Both the position numbers and the translations under genes were made by a program. DNA of 64,000 nucleotides. Origin: Acidobacteriota bacterium. Lineage in GTDB: Bacteria; Acidobacteriota; Vicinamibacteria; Vicinamibacterales; Fen-181. Under the pieces are notes generated by a model. It saw only the letters and a list, made by a program, of their open reading frames with translations. It was not told where the DNA came from and searched no databases. Of this stretch, positions 14,618 to 62,691 are shown piece after piece; position 1 is the stretch's first letter; each line of letters starts with the position of its first letter. The stretch is from the NCBI GenBank assembly GCA_003170135.1, contig PMZR01000108.1, positions 1 through 64,000 on the forward strand, in the 5' to 3' direction.

Positions 14618-14625
14618 CAATGGTG

Positions 14626-14870
14626 CGGCGTGCGATGTGCAACGTGCGAGGTGCGGTGCGGCGTGCCACGTGCGAGGTGCCGAGGGCCACGCACTCCGCA
14701 CCACGCGCGCACTGCGCACCCGGCACCGCACGTCGCACGTCGCACAACGCACGTCGCACGACGCACCGCACCTCGCACGTCGCACGATGCACCGCACCTC
14801 GCACAACGCACCGCACGTCGCACGACGCACCGCACCTCGCACGTCGCACATCGCACCGCGCACTTGAGTA
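14626..14870. repeat. Long heptamer array with inverted arms (GTGCGNN / CGCACNN)
   Basis: The left part (to about 14690) uses GTGCG-type units; the right part repeats CGCACNN (CGCACGT, CGCACAA, CGCACGA, CGCACCG) mostly at 7-bp steps, with a few 5-bp steps. It fills the gap between adaptor and pump genes of one operon, so the transcript should contain a large structured spacer. No Shine-Dalgarno is visible between it and the pump ATG at 14884. Confidence 0.9.
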
Positions 14871-21992: not shown

Positions 21993-22017
21993 TCGCGTGT
22001 CCTCGTCTCTACGCTGG

Positions 22018-22106
22018 GGTCAGGTCTTGCATTGCCACTTTTTCACGACCTGCCCCCGCCTCCCGAGGCGCGAGAGGCGAAAAGGGCCCAAGTTCAAGAT
22101 CTGACC
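22018..22106. repeat. REP-like inverted repeat
   Basis: GGTCAGGTCTTG (22018-22029) is repeated inverted, with one mismatch, as CAAGATCTGACC (22095-22106), with internal GC-rich hairpins. From memory, sequences of the type GGGGTCAGGTCTTGCATTGCC accompany REP-associated tyrosine transposases in several phyla; no transposase is here. It lies inside the cytochrome-ferredoxin operon and could affect relative expression. Confidence 0.6.
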
Positions 22107-35757: not shown

Positions 35758-36820
35758 CCATCGCGTCCGCGAGCGCGCGAACGTCGCCGGCCGGCACGAG
35801 CAGGCCGTTGACGCGGTCGCGGACGATTTCCGGCAGGCCTCCCACCGCGGACCCGATGACGGGAATGCCCATTGAGAGCGCTTCGATGGCGGCCAACGGG
35901 CATCCGTCCGCGCACGTCGAAGGCACGACGGCCACATCCGCGTCCGCCACGTACCGCTCAACATCATCCACGTGTCCCGGCAAGTGAATGCGCCCGGCCA
36001 ATCCCCACTCGTCAACTCGTCCGCGCAGGTGCGCCACCACGTCGTGCGGTTCGTGGCGCGGACGGCCGCCGAGGATGACGACGTGCAGAAGAGGCACCGC
36101 CGGGATGGCGAGACGAGCGGCCTCGAGCAGGACGTCGATCCCCTTGTGCGCGACCAGCCGGCCGGCGTACGCAACGACTATTGCATCGGCGTCGAGGCCG
36201 AGGTGCGCGCGCAGCAACGGCGCGCGCGCCGCCGCCTCGCACGCGCCGAGGTCGATGCCGTTGGTGACGACGGTGAGCGGGGCAGACAGGCCGGCAAACG
36301 GCTGGCCGATTGACGCCGACACCGCCGCGATCGCCGACACGCGGCCGAGGCGGATGGCGGCCCGATCGACGCGACGCGTGAGCCAGCGTGAATGGTCGTT
36401 GTGGATGTGCCAGACGGCGGCAATCGGGCGGCCAGGCACAGATGCACGCAGCATGCGCGTGGCGCCCGCGGTGACGTAGTGCCCCCACGTGTTGTGGCTG
36501 TAGAGCACGCGGCTGCCATGTCGTTCCGCCAGTGCGGAGATCTGGCGCGCCGCGCGGCGGAGGCCGACGAGATTGGCAACCAGCCCGACCACGCCGTTGC
36601 GGCCGTCGGCGCGCCGCCTGGTCGGCGTCTCGATGAGGTCCGGCACCACGTCGCATTCGACGCCCGCGTCGCGCAGCCAGGTCGTGAACGGGGCTTCACG
36701 GTGCACGACGGCGCGCACCTCGACGTCGAACGCCGGCAGACGGCTGGCCAGCGAAAACGCCACACGGGCCATGCCGCCGTCGTCCTCCGAAGCGACGATC
36801 ATGAGAATTGGCAGCGGCAT
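35609..36820 (-). CDS. Family 4 glycosyltransferase
   Basis: This 403-aa GT-B enzyme has the N-terminal signature MIVASEDDGGMARVAFSLA and the donor-site motifs VVAYAGRLVAHKGIDVLLEA and DGCPLAAIEALSMGIPV. It probably adds a sugar within the same surface polymer. It is convergent with the nucleotidyltransferase, whose 3' end it overlaps by 149 nt, and head-to-head with the CDP-alcohol phosphotransferase gene only 18 bp away, so promoters must overlap coding sequence. Confidence 0.92.
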   Translation of the reverse strand: MPLPILMIVASEDDGGMARVAFSLASRLPAFDVEVRAVVHREAPFTTWLRDAGVECDVVPDLIETPTRRRADGRNGVVGLVANLVGLRRAARQISALAERHGSRVLYSHNTWGHYVTAGATRMLRASVPGRPIAAVWHIHNDHSRWLTRRVDRAAIRLGRVSAIAAVSASIGQPFAGLSAPLTVVTNGIDLGACEAAARAPLLRAHLGLDADAIVVAYAGRLVAHKGIDVLLEAARLAIPAVPLLHVVILGGRPRHEPHDVVAHLRGRVDEWGLAGRIHLPGHVDDVERYVADADVAVVPSTCADGCPLAAIEALSMGIPVIGSAVGGLPEIVRDRVNGLLVPAGDVRALADAMVTLARERDLRRRMARAARDEARDRFDAVEMTRQVAAVLHQAAQERPCPA

Positions 36821-36838
36821 GTATTAGACTCTACAGTA

Positions 36839-38197
36839 ATGGGCACCAATCCGGACACGCCGATGCGGGCCGTACTGCGATGCGGTGAAGCTCCGCGCCA
36901 CGTTGGCTGGGCGCAACTGCTCCTCGACACGCGCGTGGGCGGCCTCTCTCTGCTGCAGCGCCACGTGGTGGCCTTGCGCGAGGCTGGAATCCACGATATC
37001 TCACTGGCCGTCCCGCCGGCCATTCTGCCCGACTTCGAGCGCGTGAGGCACGCCAGCCTGCCCATGGGCATCACGGTCCGCGTCGTGCCGGACGATGCCC
37101 CCGGCAAAGCTGCAGCCGATCGATCCCCGGTCCTCGAGCAGCGGGCGGACACGCTCGTCGATCCCAGGCTGCTCGTGCAGCTTGTCCAGCTGGCCGACAT
37201 AAATCCAGGTGACATGGTCTGCCTGGACAGCGATGAACACGCCAACACGCCAGAGGCCAAGTCGCCGTACGTGGCGGGCATCCCCGAAGCAGACGAAGCA
37301 AAACCGGTCGACGGCGAAGCGGCCAGGCACCTGGCGCCAATCGGGCTGGCCGTTCGTACAGCGCACGGCGAGCCCCCGGTCGGCCTCGACGTCGGTCGCT
37401 ACTACTGGCACCGCTTCAGCGGGCCACAGGACGCCGCGGACGCGACCACGAAGGTCCTGCTGGCGACGATGAAGGCCACTGACGGGCTGTTCGCGCAAAC
37501 CAACCGGCGGGTGTCCCTGCGGATCAGCCGGCTGCTCCTCGACACGCGCGTCACGCCCAACATGGTGACGATGGGGACGCTTGTCTGCGGCCTGGTGGCG
37601 GGCTGGCTGATGTCGCTCGGGTACCAGGCCGCACTGGTCGCCGGGGCGCTGATGGCGTGGTTTGCGAGCATGCTGGACGGCGTGGACGGCGAGCTGGCGC
37701 GGGCCAGGTTCCAGACCTCAGCGCTCGGCCACTGGCTCGAGATGGTCTGCGACTACGTCTTCTACATGGCGCTGTTCGTGGGGCTCGGCGCCGGCATCTA
37801 CCGGGTCACGGGGGAGACGCAGTGGCTCGTGATGGGAGGCGGCGCCGCGTGCGGCGTCGTCATCAGTTTCAGCGTCGTTGCGCACCTGAAACGCGCGTAC
37901 GCGCGGCAGGGCGCGATGGACGATTTCTATCTCGCCTACCAGCGGACCGTGAGCGGCCCCGGCTCGAATCCGTTCCTGCGCATCACGCCGCATCTGACCG
38001 CCTTGCTGACCAGGGCCGCGTTTCCGTATTTCCTGGTGGCGTTTACGCTGCTTGGCCTGGCAAAGGTGGCGCTCGTCCTCATGTTCGTGGCGACGCAGTC
38101 GTTCTGGGTCGTCGCGCTCTACGCGTCGCGCCTGCGCATGACGCTGCAGCCGGCCGAGCCCCTGGCCGAGTCGGTCGCGACGGTCGAGAACCGGTAG
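36839..38197 (+). CDS. CDP-alcohol phosphotransferase with degenerate N-terminal nucleotidyltransferase-like domain
   Basis: This 452-aa protein has two parts. Residues about 10-215 look like a nucleotidyltransferase fold without its GxGxR loop or clear acidic site. Residues about 225-440 form a membrane CDP-alcohol phosphotransferase whose motif reads DGVDGELAR (280-288), then G297, E301 and D305. The family consensus has Asp where E301 stands, so the third metal-ligand position is Glu. The layout resembles archaeal/bacterial IPCT-DIPPS fusions that make di-myo-inositol phosphate or phosphoinositides. The separate nucleotidyltransferase at 34882 could supply the lost activity. The ATG at 36839 has no Shine-Dalgarno; Met9 is an alternative start. 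Confidence 0.82.
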   Translation: MGTNPDTPMRAVLRCGEAPRHVGWAQLLLDTRVGGLSLLQRHVVALREAGIHDISLAVPPAILPDFERVRHASLPMGITVRVVPDDAPGKAAADRSPVLEQRADTLVDPRLLVQLVQLADINPGDMVCLDSDEHANTPEAKSPYVAGIPEADEAKPVDGEAARHLAPIGLAVRTAHGEPPVGLDVGRYYWHRFSGPQDAADATTKVLLATMKATDGLFAQTNRRVSLRISRLLLDTRVTPNMVTMGTLVCGLVAGWLMSLGYQAALVAGALMAWFASMLDGVDGELARARFQTSALGHWLEMVCDYVFYMALFVGLGAGIYRVTGETQWLVMGGGAACGVVISFSVVAHLKRAYARQGAMDDFYLAYQRTVSGPGSNPFLRITPHLTALLTRAAFPYFLVAFTLLGLAKVALVLMFVATQSFWVVALYASRLRMTLQPAEPLAESVATVENR

Positions 38198-38244: not shown

Positions 38245-38464
38245 CACGGGCGCAGCCGCGGCCCTCGACGAGTCGTCTGGCCGCCGGGGAAAACGACGCG
38301 CCGCCACGTCGCTTTCCAGCCTCGCCCGCCGGCAGCCTCCAATGGCTTGTGACACGTGAGTGGGCGCCAGTCGGCCGCCGGGGAAAGCGACGTGTCGCGC
38401 GTCGTTTTCCGGATGGACCGCCGGCGACCTCCAAGGCTCGTCGGGGGCCGCGGCTGCGCCCGTG
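38245..38464. repeat. Large imperfect inverted repeat
   Basis: The two arms of about 110 bp share, in inverted orientation, GGGCGCAGCCGCGGCC (outer, exact) and the inner block GGAAAACGACGCG...CGTCGCTTTCC, separated by less similar sequence. It could form a long hairpin 3' of the convergent phosphotransferase and TonB-receptor genes. It has no 7-bp period. Confidence 0.75.
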
Positions 38465-38521: not shown

Positions 38522-41038
38522 CTACCGATCGATCCAGAAATTCAGGCCGATCGACCGGGGAATCGGGTTGAAATAGCTGCCAAAGAGCGGCGAGTTGACG
38601 TTGTTGGACACGTCGCGCGGATTGAACCGGTTCAGCGCGTTGAATACGCGCACGCCGAGGCGTGTCTTCACGCCGTGGACCTTGAACGGCCGCTGCAACG
38701 ACAGGTCAACGGTCGCCAGGGTCGGGAATCGTCCGCCCTCGTTCCGGAGGCCCACGACGTCCTGGGCGGCGTTGACGAGGGAATACGGGAACCCGCTGCG
38801 CACTTCGATGACCGGCGAGACTTCGAACCGATCGGGCAAGCCAATGGTGCCCCGCATGAGAAAGCGGTGCGGGACGTCGGTGGTCGTCAGCGAGTACTGG
38901 TTCGCGACGATCACCGGGTTGCGGAAGTTGCCGAAGTAACTGTCGAAGCTGTTCAGGTCCGCCTCAGAGCGGGATCGCACGTACGACATGACCAGGTCGG
39001 ACCGCGCGCTCGGCGTGTAGCGCATGGTCAGCTCGCCCTCCCAGTGGTTGGAGCGGCCGCCGCTGTCGAGGACAAATGCGGGCACCGGCCCGACGACCGG
39101 GTTCACAATGAAGTCGTGGGCCGAGCGCCGATGCAGGAGGTTGGCCTTGAGCAACAGGTGCTCGCTCAGTCGCTGGTCGTACTCCACGTTGCCGATGATG
39201 GCGTAGGGCGTGTCGAGGTTCCCCGTGAGGTTGGTGAAGAAGGTCGGCGCCCCGAGCGGCGTGACACCGTCCGCGGCGAACTGCGTGATGCTGCGCCGTT
39301 CCATCGAGTCGAATGCGCCCACGCCGAGCGGCGTGCGCTGGTAGAAGAGCCCGAACCCGCCGCGCACGACCGCGCTCGAGTCATCGTCGAGCGCCAGCGT
39401 GAAGCCCGACCTCGGGCTGAAATCCACGTGATCGAGGACGCCGTCGCGATCGATCCGCCCCCCGAGATGGATCTGCAGCCGGTTGGTTGCGCGCCATTCG
39501 TCCTGCGCAAAGGCCGACAGGTCGGTCCCCGCCACGCTCTGCGCGGTCGGTCCGCCGAAGCTGATCGCTTCGCTGAGCGTGCCGTCCGGCCGCCGGATCT
39601 CCACCCGACGGCTGGCGCTCGTGCCGTCGTAGGACGCGGCCATGACGTCCACGCCGAACTTGAACAGGTGCGTCCCGGCCGCCGGGTTCGGCGAGTAGGT
39701 GAGCACGCTGACGGCCTGGAGCGTGCGCGTGTTCCGCACCTGGTCGTTGAAGTAGTTTCCGCCGATGGCTTGCACCGTCAACTCCTCGGGGTGCGTGCCC
39801 TGCGCGGAGATGTTCACGTCGTACTGCTTCACGTTGATCGTGGTGTCGAGGACGCTCGACGGCGACACGGTCGTCTTCTCCGTGACGCCGATGTTGAAGC
39901 CGTCCTGGTGGAAGGTCGGCGTGGCGGACAGCGGCGTGAACGTGCTCAGGTTGGCGCCTTCGATCGTGCGCGGATAGACGGCGAAGGCCGCCGTCAACGC
40001 GTGCCGGGAGTTGAGAGTGGCGTCCAGGCGCGTGAACGAGTCGAAGCTGCGCACCTGGGAGTGCGGATCGCCGGGCAGGCTCTCGACGTCGGACTTGACC
40101 AGGCGATACTGAAGGTTCTCGGACAGGAACACCCGGTCCTTGACGATCGGCCCGCCGACGGACAGGCGGGGCGTGAAGGAACTGACGCCGTGCAGCCCGC
40201 CCTGGTCGAGTTGCAGGCGCGGGATGAAGCTGTTGGGGATGAACTGCCACCGGTTGCCGCCCTTGCGCGTGTGGATTTCCGTCACGCCGGACGAGAACCG
40301 GCCGTACTGCGCGGAATACGGGTTCTGCAGCACCTCCACCGATTCGACCGCGTCGCCGGGCAAGTCGAACGCGAAATCATTGGTGGACGGATCGGTCACG
40401 CTCGCGCTGCTGACCTGGAGACCCGACTGTGTCGGCTCGCCGCCCGCCATCCGCATGCGGCCGTCGCTGCCCCGGACGACGGCCGGAAGAAGCGGCAGCA
40501 GCGCCTGGTAGTTGTCGCCGGCAAGCGGCGTCTGCGTCAGCGCGGCACCCGACACCGTGTCGCCGCCCGTCGTCGGCACCGCATTGGGCGCGCGATCGAC
40601 CACGCTCACGTTCTCCGACACCCCTCCGACGGGCAGATCCAGCGCCACGTCCAGCGGCTTTCCCGCCGCGACCTGGATTCTCTTTGTGGCATCGTCAAAG
40701 CCGGCGAGCGATGCCTTGAGGTTGTACTGCCCGGGCGGCACGTTGGCGAACGTGAAGTGCCCGGTGTCGTCCGAGGCGGCGGTCATCGCGTGGCGCGCGC
40801 CCGATGGGTCGCTGAGCACGACGACGACGCCGGGCAGGAACACGGTGCCGGCCTGGGTCGTCGTGACGCCGCGAACCGTCGCGGCGCTGCCAGTCGAGGG
40901 AGAACCCGCTTGCGCGGTCTGTGCCGCGGCGGACGAGGAGCCAGCGAACAGCAGGGACAGGACGGCGAGCGAAAGAGCCCGGCTCATCAAGCCGGTGGCG
41001 CTGTCTCTGGTGGGAAACCGGGAACCAATCTTGTGCAT
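38522..41038 (-). CDS. TonB-dependent receptor with carboxypeptidase-regulatory domain
   Basis: About 838 aa. After a signal peptide (cleavage near SSSAAAQ) there is a CarboxypepD_reg-like beta-sandwich (TVRGVTTTQAGTVFLPGVVV through AGKPLDVALDL). A plug with DAVESVEVLQNPYSAQYGRF and a beta-barrel ending in IPRSIGLNFWIDR follow. It takes up a large ligand (glycan, siderophore or peptide) in an energy-dependent way. ATG 41038 is chosen; an internal Met at 40987 also gives a good signal peptide. Its barrel is shorter than those of the two receptors that follow, and it lacks close similarity to them. Confidence 0.9.
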   Translation of the reverse strand: MHKIGSRFPTRDSATGLMSRALSLAVLSLLFAGSSSAAAQTAQAGSPSTGSAATVRGVTTTQAGTVFLPGVVVVLSDPSGARHAMTAASDDTGHFTFANVPPGQYNLKASLAGFDDATKRIQVAAGKPLDVALDLPVGGVSENVSVVDRAPNAVPTTGGDTVSGAALTQTPLAGDNYQALLPLLPAVVRGSDGRMRMAGGEPTQSGLQVSSASVTDPSTNDFAFDLPGDAVESVEVLQNPYSAQYGRFSSGVTEIHTRKGGNRWQFIPNSFIPRLQLDQGGLHGVSSFTPRLSVGGPIVKDRVFLSENLQYRLVKSDVESLPGDPHSQVRSFDSFTRLDATLNSRHALTAAFAVYPRTIEGANLSTFTPLSATPTFHQDGFNIGVTEKTTVSPSSVLDTTINVKQYDVNISAQGTHPEELTVQAIGGNYFNDQVRNTRTLQAVSVLTYSPNPAAGTHLFKFGVDVMAASYDGTSASRRVEIRRPDGTLSEAISFGGPTAQSVAGTDLSAFAQDEWRATNRLQIHLGGRIDRDGVLDHVDFSPRSGFTLALDDDSSAVVRGGFGLFYQRTPLGVGAFDSMERRSITQFAADGVTPLGAPTFFTNLTGNLDTPYAIIGNVEYDQRLSEHLLLKANLLHRRSAHDFIVNPVVGPVPAFVLDSGGRSNHWEGELTMRYTPSARSDLVMSYVRSRSEADLNSFDSYFGNFRNPVIVANQYSLTTTDVPHRFLMRGTIGLPDRFEVSPVIEVRSGFPYSLVNAAQDVVGLRNEGGRFPTLATVDLSLQRPFKVHGVKTRLGVRVFNALNRFNPRDVSNNVNSPLFGSYFNPIPRSIGLNFWIDR

Positions 41039-41531
41039 CAGCGTCGCCTGGCGCCGCCGCCGAAGCGGGGGGGCGGAAAAAAGTACCGACCTTATACCTA
41101 AGACGCTCGAGTCCCCGGCGAGGTGACAGACTCGTTCCCAGTCTTGCCGGAGCCGCTGTCTACCAGGGGTCCGCGCAAGCAAACGCTGACTCCGCCAGGC
41201 TGGACGGCCAAGCGGGCGCGTCATCGTTCAGTTGAGGCGTCCCAGCGATTGTAAGCGGCAAGCCAGAAACACGCCAGCCGAGCGATTCACGCGGGTATGG
41301 CAGAGATCTCGGATTACTCACTGCGTAAGCGTGACTTACGGCAATTCGGCGGGCGCGGGCCTTTCGCAGGTGCCCGTGCGAATCGTGTGCGCGATTGAGA
41401 TCACTACACCCCGGTTGTCCCACAAAGTGTCACGGTGTAGCACTCGGAAGACGTGCAGACCCATCGAACGCGACCATCCGTCCGGCGGGCGTGAGCCGCG
41501 CCCCTCGGGGCGGCTGGCGCGAGGCCATCTG
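41039..41531. other. Gene-free region upstream of the first TonB receptor
   Basis: No convincing gene is seen. On the minus strand TATAAG (41096-41091) is a candidate -10 for the receptor gene, without a clear -35. The remainder appears to be ordinary spacer up to the terminator at 41532. Confidence 0.4.
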
Positions 41532-54601: not shown

Positions 54602-54691
54602 TATAGTGACACCCAGATTATGGCCCCAAAGATGGCTCGTGTGTTACCTTTTCGCTTGACATTACCTGCACGAGCAAGCACAATAGTCAGT

Positions 54692-55522
54692 ATGAACAAG
54701 CTGACGAACGCCAAGCGAGCGGCGGTGGTAGCGGCACTAGTCGAAGGCAACTCCATCCGGTCTACCGTCCGTATGACGGGCGTGGCGAAGAACACCGTCG
54801 TTAAGTTGCTCGCGGATCTCGGCGCGGCTTGCGCGAAGTTCCACGATGAAACCGTGCGGAACGTGAACGCGAAACGCGTGCAGTGCGATGAGATCTGGTC
54901 GTTTGTTTACGCGAAGGCGAAGAACGTCCCGGCCGAGAAGCGCGGCGAGTTCGGCGTCGGCGACGTGTGGACGTGGACGGCGATCGAGGCGCAGAGCAAG
55001 CTGATCGTGTCCTGGCTGGTCGGCGCTCGGGATGCGGGCGCAGCCTACGACTTCATGACGGACGTGGCGAGCCGGCTCCGCAACCGCGTGCAACTGACCA
55101 CGGACGGGCACAAGCCGTACCTCGCGGCCGTCGAAGATGCGTTCGGTGCCGACATCGACTACGCAGTACTCCAGAAGATCTACGGCTCTGACCCTGAGGG
55201 CGAAAAGCGCTACAGTCCGGCGACGTGCATCGGCATGCAATGCGAGATCGTCCACGGCGATCCGGACCCGAAGCACATCTCGACGAGCTACGTGGAGCGC
55301 CAGAACCTCTCGATGCGGATGTCCATGCGACGGTTCACGCGCCTGACCAACGCCTTCTCAAAGAAGGTGGAGAACCACGCGGCGGCGATTGCGCTCTACT
55401 TCGTCTACTACAACTTCGGGCGTGTGCATCAGACGTTGCGAGTGACGCCAGCCATGGAAGCGGGCCTTGCAGATTACGTCTGGACCATCGACGAAATTGT
55501 CCAACTAATCGAGCAGGAATAG
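54692..55522 (+). CDS. IS1-family-like DDE transposase
   Basis: This 276-aa protein has an N-terminal helix-turn-helix (AALVEGNSIRSTVRMTGVAK) and a DDE core. The likely catalytic acids are in VQCDEIWSFV, LTTDGHKPYL and STSYVERQNLSMRM; the last, with MRRFTRLTNAFSKK, is the IS1-type signature. It catalyses cut-and-paste or copy movement of the 3.5-kb element. ATG 54692 is chosen because similarity begins there; an upstream ATG (54620) is in frame but covers the promoter region. It appears intact. Confidence 0.9.
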   Translation: MNKLTNAKRAAVVAALVEGNSIRSTVRMTGVAKNTVVKLLADLGAACAKFHDETVRNVNAKRVQCDEIWSFVYAKAKNVPAEKRGEFGVGDVWTWTAIEAQSKLIVSWLVGARDAGAAYDFMTDVASRLRNRVQLTTDGHKPYLAAVEDAFGADIDYAVLQKIYGSDPEGEKRYSPATCIGMQCEIVHGDPDPKHISTSYVERQNLSMRMSMRRFTRLTNAFSKKVENHAAAIALYFVYYNFGRVHQTLRVTPAMEAGLADYVWTIDEIVQLIEQE

Positions 55523-56459: not shown

Positions 56460-58373
56460 ATGAGCAGCAAGGATCGAAAACAGCGAGGCGGCCGGCCGGC
56501 GAAGACCGCCGGCCACAGAGGTCAGCCCGGATCCGCGCCGGTGACGGTGACCGATCTGCCGCCCGCTTCGGCGCCCGCGCGCGGCCGGGTCTCCTGGTGG
56601 ATGGTCGTCGCGATTCTCGTCGCGCTGGTCGCCCTCAACCTGGCGGTGTTCGCCCCTGTCCGCCACTACGATTTCATCCAGCTCGACGATCCCGCGCAGG
56701 TCAGCGAGAACACCAACGTGGCCGGCGGCCTCACGTGGGCCGGCGTGGGATGGGCGTTCACGTCGGCCCGAGCCGGCTACTGGATGCCGCTCGTCTGGCT
56801 GTCCCACATGCTCGACGTGCAGCTCTACGGCATGAACGCCGGGCCGCACCACGTCACCAATCTGGTTCTGCACATCGCCTGCACGCTGCTGCTCTTCGGA
56901 TTGCTGTTGCGGATGACCGGCGCCGCCGGCCGGAGCGCGTTCGTGGCGGCGCTGTTTGCCGTCCATCCGCTGCACGTCGAATCGGTCGCCTGGATCACCG
57001 AGCGGAAAGACGTGCTGAGCACGGTGTTCTGGATGCTCACCTTGTGGGCCTATGTCGCCTACGCGCGGCGTCCGGGGTGGTGGCGTTACGGGCTCGTGTG
57101 CGTGTCGTTCGCGCTCGGCCTGATGGCGAAGCCGATGCTGGTCACGCTGCCGGCGGTGATGCTGCTCGTCGACGTGTGGCCGCTGGGGCGATTCGGAAGG
57201 CGGGAGGCGGGGTCCTTGATTCGCGAGAAGATCCCCCTGCTGGCGCTCGCCGTGGCCGCCAGCATCGTGGCCTTCCTCACCCAGCGCGGCTCCGGCGCCG
57301 TCGGCAACCTCCAGGTCTTCCCGCTGGGTCTGCGCGTGCAGAACGCGCTCGTGAGCTACGTCGCGTATCTCGGCAAGATGGTGTGGCCGACGCGTCTCAC
57401 GGCCTTTTACCCGTATCCCTCGTCTCTGCCGGCCTGGTCGGTGGCGGGTTCAGCGTTGCTGCTCATCGTCGTATCAGTCGCCGCGTGGCGGGCTGCCCGG
57501 TCCGTTCCGTACCTGGCGGTGGGATGGTTCTGGTACCTCGGCACGCTCGTGCCGGTCATCGGCGTGGTGCAGGTGGGCATCCAGTCGATGGCCGATCGGT
57601 TCACCTATGTGCCGCTGGTCGGCATCTTCATCGCGATCGCGTGGGGCGTGCCCGACGCGCTTGCGCGGTGGCGCGTGCCGGGGCGCCGCATGGCTGTTCC
57701 TGCTCTTGCGGCCGCCGTCATCGTTGCCTGCGCGGTCGGCGCGCACGCCCAGGTCGCCTACTGGCAGGACAGCGTCGCGATGTGGACGCGCACCACCGAA
57801 ATCGCGATGAACACCGACGCTTATCACGCGCACATCGCACTGGGCCAGACCTTGCGCGCAAAGGGCCGGATGGACGAGGCGATCGGACATTTCACAAAGG
57901 CCGTCCGCCTGCAGCCCGGCTCGAGCGCGGCACAGTATGAGCTGGGCGCGACGCTGGCGAGCCAGGGACGAGAAGACGAGGCGATTGCGCGACTGCTGGA
58001 TGCGGTGCGCCTGCGGCCTGACTTCGCCGAGGCGCACATCGATCTCGGCGCGCTCTTTTCCCGTCGCCAGAAGACGGACGAGGCCATCGCGCATTACCAG
58101 GAGGGGCTGCGCATCAGGCCCGATCTCGCGGAAGCGCACAACAACCTGGGCGCGCTGCTGGCGCAGCAGGGCAGGATGGCCGAGGCGCTGCCGCACTTCG
58201 CCGCCGCCGTGCGCCTGAAGCCGGATTTCGAATATGCGCGCGTGAATCTCGGCCTTGCGCTCGCAAGTGCCGGCAGGTCCGCGGAGGCGCTCCACGAGTT
58301 CGAGGAGGCGTTGCGCATCAACCCGGCGAACGACATGGCGCGCCGTGCCGCCGACGGCTTGCGGCGACGCTGA
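56460..58373 (+). CDS. TMTC-like GT-C membrane protein with TPR repeats
   Basis: This 637-aa protein has a polar N-terminus, about ten membrane helices (to about residue 440) and about five TPR repeats (about 455-630). Signatures such as VHPLHVESVAWITERKDVLS and a DDP acidic pair in IQLDDPAQVSENTNV match the TMTC/ArnT-like O-mannosyltransferase group common in Acidobacteria. It probably glycosylates proteins or lipids on the outer side of the inner membrane. A heptamer array occupies the spot of the ribosome-binding site. It is divergent from the gene at 50572, which has the same domain plan but low sequence similarity. Confidence 0.88.
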   Translation: MSSKDRKQRGGRPAKTAGHRGQPGSAPVTVTDLPPASAPARGRVSWWMVVAILVALVALNLAVFAPVRHYDFIQLDDPAQVSENTNVAGGLTWAGVGWAFTSARAGYWMPLVWLSHMLDVQLYGMNAGPHHVTNLVLHIACTLLLFGLLLRMTGAAGRSAFVAALFAVHPLHVESVAWITERKDVLSTVFWMLTLWAYVAYARRPGWWRYGLVCVSFALGLMAKPMLVTLPAVMLLVDVWPLGRFGRREAGSLIREKIPLLALAVAASIVAFLTQRGSGAVGNLQVFPLGLRVQNALVSYVAYLGKMVWPTRLTAFYPYPSSLPAWSVAGSALLLIVVSVAAWRAARSVPYLAVGWFWYLGTLVPVIGVVQVGIQSMADRFTYVPLVGIFIAIAWGVPDALARWRVPGRRMAVPALAAAVIVACAVGAHAQVAYWQDSVAMWTRTTEIAMNTDAYHAHIALGQTLRAKGRMDEAIGHFTKAVRLQPGSSAAQYELGATLASQGREDEAIARLLDAVRLRPDFAEAHIDLGALFSRRQKTDEAIAHYQEGLRIRPDLAEAHNNLGALLAQQGRMAEALPHFAAAVRLKPDFEYARVNLGLALASAGRSAEALHEFEEALRINPANDMARRAADGLRRR

Positions 58374-58412
58374 TGCGGCGGCGATTCCGTGGCGGTCGCG
58401 GAGCGGACGCAG

Positions 58413-59222
58413 CACCTTCCGAGCCGGCTCCGCGGTCGGGGAACGCTCCTCGCGTTGCGCCATGTTCCGGATCTCAGTGTCCGGCTGGCGCTACCCGCGC
58501 TTGATCGACCGCTACGCGCTGCGCCGGGGAACATGGCGCAAGCGCTCGTCGTGTTCCGGCGTCGCGCACCGACCGCTCCGCACGGCTCGTTCGGTGCTGC
58601 GTCCGCTCCGTCTGCTGCGATCGGGAATCGCGGTTTGCTGCGAGGTGCGGACAGCATCCGTTGGAGGACTCACCTCTCGATGCGCGCGCCTCGACGGGCG
58701 GCCAGCGCGAGGCGGGCCACCAGCGAGAGCCGTAGAGTCAGGACAAGCGGCAGGCGCCGAAATCCGAGGCGAAGGCCAACCGTACACGGGGTCAGGTCTC
58801 AGACCTGACCCCGAGCGATGGGGGCCACGCACCCGTCCTGCACCCCGCGCCGTTCTTCGGACGTTAAGCCGCAGCCGAGGATTTGCCGAGAACGGGGCTC
58901 GAGCGGTGGCCCGCCTCGCGCTGGCCGCCCTCGGGTGCGCGGATTCAGACGGGCTCGCGCTCGGCAGCCGGGATGGCTCCCCGCACCTTGGATCAGACCG
59001 CGATCCCACGTCGCCGCAGACGGAGCGGACGCAGCACCGAACGAGCCGTGCGGAGCGGTCGGCTCGCGATGCCGGAACACGAACGAGCGCCTTGCGCCGT
59101 GTTCCCCGGCGCAGCGCGTAGTGCGGTCGAGCAGGCGCGGGTAGCGCCAGCCGGACACCGAGATCCGGAACACGGCGCAACGCGAGGAGTGTTCCCCGAC
59201 TGCGGAGCCGGCTCGGAAGGTG
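58413..59222. repeat. 810-bp nested quasi-palindrome
   Basis: The outer arms (58413-58650 and 58981-59222) are near-identical inverted repeats of about 240 bp. A 26-bp exact inverted match (58696-58721 and 58905-58930) lies nested inside, and the perfect palindrome GGGGTCAGGTCT-C-AGACCTGACCCC (58788-58812) is at the centre. The arms also contain smaller hairpins (GCGCCATGTTCC / GGAACATGGCGC). Reading frames on both strands are mirror images of each other and are judged non-coding. It fills the gap between two convergent genes. Confidence 0.9.
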
Positions 59223-59267
59223 GTGGGGCCGCTCCGTGCGCGCCTCGGAATCGTGACGAAGTCGTCG

Positions 59268-59729
59268 CTAATGCCCGGCGGCCTTCATGCGCCGCTCCAT
59301 TTCTTCGTGTGACACGTCTTCGATGTGCGTGGAAATCCACCATTCGTTGCCGCACGGATCCTGCACGCCGGCGCTGCGGTCGCCGTAGAACTGGTTGGCC
59401 GGCTCGCGCAGCGACGTCGCGCCCGCGGCGATCGCCCGCCGGTAGATGGCGTCCACGTCGGGCACATACAGGTGCAGCGAGGCCGGCAGCGGCTTGAACC
59501 GGTCACCCGGGTCGCCCATCATGACAATCGAATCGCCGATGCGGACCTCGGCGTGCATGATGCTGCCGTCGGGCCCGGCGAACCGGGAGATCTCCTTCGC
59601 GTCGAACGCCCGCGTCAGGAAGTCGATCAACTTCGCAACGCCCGGCACGCGCAGGGCCGGTGTCACGCTGTGAAAGCCCTCGGGGATCGGTCTCACACCG
59701 GTCGCCACGGATGTCTCACGCTTCTCCAT
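59268..59729 (-). CDS. VOC-superfamily protein (PhnB/glyoxalase-like)
   Basis: This 153-aa single-domain VOC protein has FHSVTPALRVPGVAKLIDFL, MHAEVRIGDSIVMMGDPG and VQDPCGNEWWISTHIED, typical of the PhnB-like branch. Members bind metals or act as lyases, dioxygenases or resistance proteins; the substrate is not known. ATG 59729 has GGAGAG upstream. Only 9 nt separate it from the stop codon of a CoxL-tail remnant, so it once followed a molybdenum hydroxylase gene in an operon. Confidence 0.88.
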   Translation of the reverse strand: MEKRETSVATGVRPIPEGFHSVTPALRVPGVAKLIDFLTRAFDAKEISRFAGPDGSIMHAEVRIGDSIVMMGDPGDRFKPLPASLHLYVPDVDAIYRRAIAAGATSLREPANQFYGDRSAGVQDPCGNEWWISTHIEDVSHEEMERRMKAAGH

Positions 59730-62370: not shown

Positions 62371-62476
62371 GTCCTTGGTCCCTGGTCCTTGGTCCCTGGT
62401 CCCTGGTGCGAGTCCCTCGTCCCTGGTGCGCACCAAAGACCACGGACTCGCACCAAGGACCAAGGACCAAGGACCA
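62371..62476. repeat. Heptamer array with inverted arms (TCCCTGG / CCAAGGA)
   Basis: TCCTTGG and TCCCTGG units on the left, ACCAAGG units on the right, joined through GGTGCGCACC. It is the same heptamer family as at 61445-61522 and 23314-23376. It lies where the N-terminus of the decayed permease should be. Confidence 0.9.
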
Positions 62477-62691
62477 GTTACCTCGCGCTGTCTCTCCCCG
62501 TTTCGGCCTTCTACGGCGCCGATGGCCCTGAGGTTGCAAGGGCGTCCCTTGCACGCCGGTCCCAACCCTCGGCGGAGTTGTCTCGTCTAAGATGTCAGCG
62601 AGTCCGGACCCGCCGTGGGTGGCCTGCCCCGGCGGGAACCAAATGCCTGGCCGACACGTATCCCGGGTGTAGGACGCGGAAGGGGCCTGAG

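Follow-up and report, generated by a model that had tools for sequence, protein, structure and literature searches.

A nested 872-bp palindrome between convergent genes of an Acidobacteriota genome, probably accreted from hairpin-forming mobile repeats

Main finding

In the window (the whole 64,000-nt stretch of DNA analysed here), a three-layer palindrome fills almost the entire gap between two convergent genes, whose stop codons lie at 58373 (+) and 59268 (−). Probably, this palindrome is a mosaic accreted in the convergent gap from non-autonomous hairpin-forming mobile repeats. Two copies of a repeat A, each an imperfect hairpin of about 250 bp, would have come to lie tail to tail, each behind a stop codon; one copy of a second repeat, B, would have been placed between A and A'; and B would have received, at an earlier time, a short hairpin of the kind associated with Y1 (RAYT/TIRYT) transposases. 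Such insertion or duplication events would be successive, A and B would have moved by transposition, and the site would be tolerated because nothing is disrupted there. The non-autonomous hairpin element proposed by the first-pass annotation is right in spirit, but three repeat families forming a mosaic take the place of the single element.

Very long palindromes are normally considered unstable. The present arrangement indicates that they can accumulate and persist in a bacterial chromosome through the stacking of small palindromic mobile elements, where the arms have diverged and the elements sit safely downstream of stop codons.

Architecture of the palindrome

An inverted-repeat search of the window places the limits of the palindrome at 58382–59253 (872 bp), slightly beyond the 58413–59222 previously given for a nested palindrome between convergent genes. 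The features of the region, and related repeats elsewhere in the window, are as follows.

56460..58373, +: gene of a TPR-repeat membrane protein, upstream of A (ORF, TPR-family matches)
58382..58632, +: repeat A, left copy, a quasi-palindrome of ~250 bp with ends CGATTCCG / GGGAATCG (profile match 58379-58636, E=2e-72)
58633..58697, no strand: left linker, A to B, the first ~20 nt continuing the A subfamily
58698..58936, +: repeat B, ~240 bp, dispersed, with 25/26-bp exact inverted ends GGCGGCCAGCGCGAGGCGGGCCACC
58787..58813, no strand: core CGGGGTCAGGTCTCAGACCTGACCCCG, inserted in B, a collapsed form of the transposase-associated repeat GGGGTCAG...
58937..58999, no strand: right linker, B to A', homologous to the A–B linker of locus L051
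59000..59253, −: repeat A', inverted right-hand copy (profile match 58995-59257, E=3e-68)
59268..59729, −: gene upstream of A' (ORF, coding score; VOC/glyoxalase-like by eye, no NCBIfam match)
58382-58512/59123-59253: inverted repeat, 131 nt, 90%
58512-58542/59091-59121: inverted repeat, 97%
58549-58655/58976-59082: inverted repeat, 87%
58685-58721/58905-58941: inverted repeat, 86%, containing the 26-bp exact repeat
58787-58799/58801-58813: core inverted repeat, perfect, with a 1-nt centre (13+1+13)
38282-38350 and 38376-38449, +: two degenerate A-type fragments (profile matches, E~2e-5)
22016..22027, +: further copy of the GGGGTCAGGTCT repeat

Of 416 aligned positions, 359 are shared by the two halves of the palindrome; agreement is 82–95% in the outer arms and ~60% in the centre. 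No inverted repeats in the 64-kb window are longer than the two that form its arms. Folded as single-stranded DNA, the region reaches −474.5 kcal/mol, compared with −250 ± 7.5 for shuffled sequences (z = −30). The inner 26-bp exact repeat and the central palindrome of the first-pass annotation were both recovered at the positions listed above. Its single symmetry axis holds as an approximation, since the axes of the outer arms (58815.5–58817.5), the ends of B (58813) and the core (58800) lie close to each other without being identical. The degenerate A fragments are situated in another convergent gap, between the genes at 36392-38197 (+) and 38522-41224 (−).

Dispersed repeat families A and B

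The own genome (5.8 Mb in 141 contigs) was searched with A together with half of B as the query, yielding 54 matches that resolve into the families A and B. B occupies about a dozen places, including L051, L060, L064, L065, L066, L073, L074, L083, and L084. A occurs alone at L052 and L053, B occurs alone at L066, L073, and L074, and an A–linker–B arrangement without a second A exists at L051. The GGGGTCAGGTCT repeat described below is likewise dispersed. A and B are short, non-coding, and dispersed, with inverted ends, as is characteristic of MITEs. B was also considered as a coding fragment and rejected on account of a 1-nt deletion in L073/L074 and its changing ends. The fold of B carries paired changes at both ends. 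A related subfamily, A2, comprises near-identical copies (94–98%), many of them at contig ends; these copies are young.

Of 162 genomes of the order, a covariance model of A detects the repeat in 4, namely the own genome, with 16 matches, two others of its family, and one from a different family. Exact-pattern scans of named sequences returned nothing among named relatives in the first scan, and one acidobacterial MAG contig (PMKG01) and no viral contigs in the second.

The linkers are related to differing degrees. The A–B linker of L051 aligns to the right linker with a score of 38, reached by none of 1000 shuffles, and the left linker only weakly resembles the right one (shuffle fraction 0.055) and L051 (shuffle fraction 0.034), the match extending over no more than ~20 nt. 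In addition, a third small hairpin, GGGCACCCC...GGCTGCCGC...GGGGACCCCGCC, is located inside copies of both A and B (L051 1766, L059 1752, L060 523, and L065 1613), and a CCCTTCGAC...GCTCAGGG hairpin lies inside the A-type elements of L065 and L067.

MITE-like units and an IS4-family element

A MITE in contig C71 (L069) has the ends CAATGCC...GGCATTG and is flanked by GGACTAGCGG / GGACTAGTGG, a 10-bp target duplication matching at 9 of 10 positions. Ends of the same type are found beside A at L061 and L063, and in contig C47 ends of the L069 type enclose an IS4-family transposase gene (NF033592, 147 bits against a cutoff of 115). Because these ends are common to the A-type MITEs and the C47 gene, an IS4-type element could move A-type palindromes, and such an element would be the best candidate mobiliser. 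A second group, L067, L068, and L075, possesses other ends. Across the MITE-like units that contain the A module, two or more kinds of ends occur, among them CAATGCC... and GGACATT...GGGTGA. Around the window copies A and A', no target duplication and no IS4-type ends were recognised, their ends being CGATTCCG. The genomes of the A-carrying relatives contain no close homologue of the C47 transposase, and no IS4-type MITEs in Acidobacteria were found in the literature. In several MITE targets the central dinucleotide is TA and the sequence is similar to GTTAGNC. At the end of the window contig (C56:89967-89992, L195), an IS4/MITE-type end adjoins an attC-looking TAACAAGCGCTTGCACCCGACGGCGC on the reverse strand.

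In a rival, less likely origin, A–B–A' would be a single 872-bp palindromic transposon, a foldback MITE with ends CGATTCCG, and the loci with A only or with A–B would be its deletion derivatives. The homology of the arms stops at the symmetric points 58382 and 59253, two A-type arms are arranged tail to tail at L069, L063, L067, L068, and L087 (within MITE-like units where ends are recognisable), and L051 retains A–linker–B, all of which would be expected from a unit of this kind. However, A and A' share 89% identity, and their identity with L055 and L057 reaches up to 90%; being as close to these loci as to each other, they are not the product of a recent local duplication. Furthermore, B occurs alone, no B was seen within any of the fully read TIR-bounded units, and no target duplication flanks 58382/59253, leaving the single transposon as the less likely origin by a wide measure. 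The near-coincident axes of A and B, the linkers of ~65 and 63 bp, and the A'–linker–B junction resembling that of L051 could instead reflect inheritance as a block rather than stepwise accretion. Within the mosaic, an A–linker–B block joined separately by a second A is preferred over an old whole foldback unit.

Conservation of the fold of A

A aligns over ~250 columns in the own and related genomes, and its nested stem consists of 68 pairs, 94.7% of them standard. Both sides have changed in 29 of the 68 pairs, a number reached by none of 500 shuffles, and sliding the partner by one column as a control lowers the pairing to ~37%. Among 604 cells, the mismatches within the pairs predicted on both strands comprise 8 G-U and 8 A-C. 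That the two kinds are equally rare is not expected of a selected RNA stem and fits a constraint at the DNA level or template-switch correction. The constraint on the fold of A thus looks DNA-level, and the fold would most likely be kept as DNA, through single-strand or cruciform intermediates or through template-switch correction of the arms. Template-switch correction is reported to create and to maintain hairpins (PMC8794818). The strong paired-change signal of A makes it a natural test of whether hairpins are conserved by selection or through template-switch correction.

No Rfam family is matched, and together with the lack of a G-U excess over A-C this leaves the long structured RNA suggested earlier unsupported. 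An integron attC identity for A was rejected, as its ends CGATTCCG / CGGAATCG do not conform to RYYYAAC/GTTRRRY and its length of ~250 bp compares with under ~150 bp. The own genome contains an integron integrase gene (C67:377-1321, −; L188, L194) scoring 424 bits against an NCBIfam cutoff of 265, and no attC-like TAACAA site is present in the first 4 kb of C67.

Position behind stop codons

In the window, both copies are in sense orientation, and the stop codon of the neighbouring gene lies 8 bp before the start of A and 14 bp before that of A'. With A and A' each oriented in this way behind convergent stops, the tail-to-tail inverted repeat arises automatically. Across the genome, with flanking genes outside the window called by a home-made simple codon model instead of a gene finder, the same tendency is observed. 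Of the 14 copies of A whose 5' end is intact, 12 have that end closer to a gene than the 3' end (p=0.013; leaving out the two window copies gives p = 0.039), and 10 copies have a gene 3' end within 64 nt of their 5' side, compared with one copy for the 3' side. Of 23 resolved sites, 11 lie between convergent genes; the corresponding figure among gene pairs of the window is 9 of 37 (p=0.09). In published genomes, most REPs between convergent genes are situated <20 bp from both 3' ends (PMC3733652); since mobile REPs share this bias, proximity to a stop codon alone is no proof of function.

A bolder proposal, which we consider unlikely, is that A defines a hitherto undescribed class of mobile element, a long folded DNA of ~250 nt with orientation-specific insertion at gene 3' ends, serving as a preferred landing place for smaller palindromes and so producing Russian-doll palindromes at convergent gene ends.

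Also unlikely is a functional 3'-end device, in which A would be a transcribed 3'-UTR hairpin, a terminator or an mRNA stabiliser, kept behind many genes, with one hairpin here for each convergent gene. The sense orientation and stop-codon proximity of A, its share of convergent sites, and its compensatory changes are in keeping with such a role, but the REP-like position bias, the mismatch pattern of the stem, and the restriction of A to four genomes of the order weigh against it. Neither does the main hairpin form an intrinsic terminator (G+C stem followed by a T-run) anywhere in the region. Of two weak terminator-like matches (shuffle mean 0.4), one is a 5-pair stem that lies in A' and the other falls within the neighbouring gene. 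The very large bidirectional terminator considered in the first-pass annotation has support from its position only, neither classical match deriving from the main hairpin. A 3'-end role and a mobile origin of A are mutually compatible, not exclusive.

As for tolerance of the palindrome, the own genome contains no SbcD above cutoff, only two weaker metallophosphoesterase matches, one of them YhaO-like by eye. Loss of SbcCD was considered as the reason for tolerance, but 53 of 60 relatives are likewise without an SbcD above cutoff, which makes SbcD uninformative on this point.

An assembly artefact in the form of a foldback chimera is very improbable, because a chimera should give identical arms and the observed arms differ at 10–14% of sites, each abutting a different gene, with similar, non-identical arrangements on other contigs, even though many contigs of the MAG break in these repeats.

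Core hairpin and a Y1 transposase

The centre of B contains a collapsed GGGGTCAGGTCT/AGACCTGACCCC hairpin. The 12-mer GGGGTCAGGTCT occurs 70 times in the genome, compared with 0 occurrences of a reversed-pattern control, and the copies whose sequence was read mostly form a GGGGTCAGGTCTTG...CACGACCTGnCCCC stem-loop. In contig C76, two + and two − copies of GGGGTCAGGTCT are arranged two per side, in inverted orientation, around a Y1_Tnp gene (REP_Tyr_transpos, 74.1 bits, just under the cutoff of 80). No GTAG tag is conserved beside the stem in 45 contexts, and GGGGTCAG fits the GGGGWSAS motif of the TIRYT-type TIR (PMC3733652). The REP-like character previously ascribed to the core is accordingly upheld, as that of a TIRYT-type repeat flanking a RAYT-like transposase gene.

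The core is present at one position in the B copies of the window, L060, L064, and L065, and is missing from that site in L051, L066, L073, and L074. Most simply, the hairpin entered B once, after which B spread. A further inverted pair of GGGGTCAGGTCT repeats is located just outside the window (C56:64342-64461; L049, L050).

Relation to known repeats

The core resembles REP/BIME and TIRYT repeats (PMC2817692, PMC3733652) in being a short extragenic palindrome with tens of copies and an inverted arrangement around a Y1 transposase gene; it differs from REPs in that it is without the GTAG tag and has lost its loop to become a perfect 13+1+13 palindrome. The families A and B are 6–10 times longer than REPs. 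In other genomes, short palindromes of the REP/TIRYT type have also been observed inserted inside longer palindromes (PMC3733652). With MITEs such as NEMIS/Correia, ERIC, RUP, and Nezha, the repeats share a non-coding, hairpin-forming, intergenic, and dispersed nature and a length of 200–650 bp. The likeness extends to IS4-type ends and one target duplication in copies of the L069 type, whereas the window copies show no such ends. Bidirectional intrinsic terminators are similar in having a strong hairpin right behind both stop codons, but the present structure spans 870 bp, its main hairpin has no T-tract, and it is built of multi-copy mobile repeats.

In its behaviour the mosaic is comparable to BIMEs and to clusters of MITEs. 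It is a large and closely dissected example of a type of bacterial repeat already known, not a new machine. New are the repeat families A and B, which add two uncatalogued families for Acidobacteriota, the way the repeats are stacked in three layers, and a covariation signal that looks DNA-level.

Other repeats and mobile genes in the window

An IS1-like transposase ORF is located at 54620-55519 (+), matching NF033558 below the cutoff and PF03400 above it. Two other inverted repeats, at 14623-14863 and 62377-62482, consist of simple repeats of the GTGCGAGGTGCG type and the GGTCCCTGGTCC type. A self-palindrome of 96 bp (87%) occupies 62382-62477 (L071 383-478).
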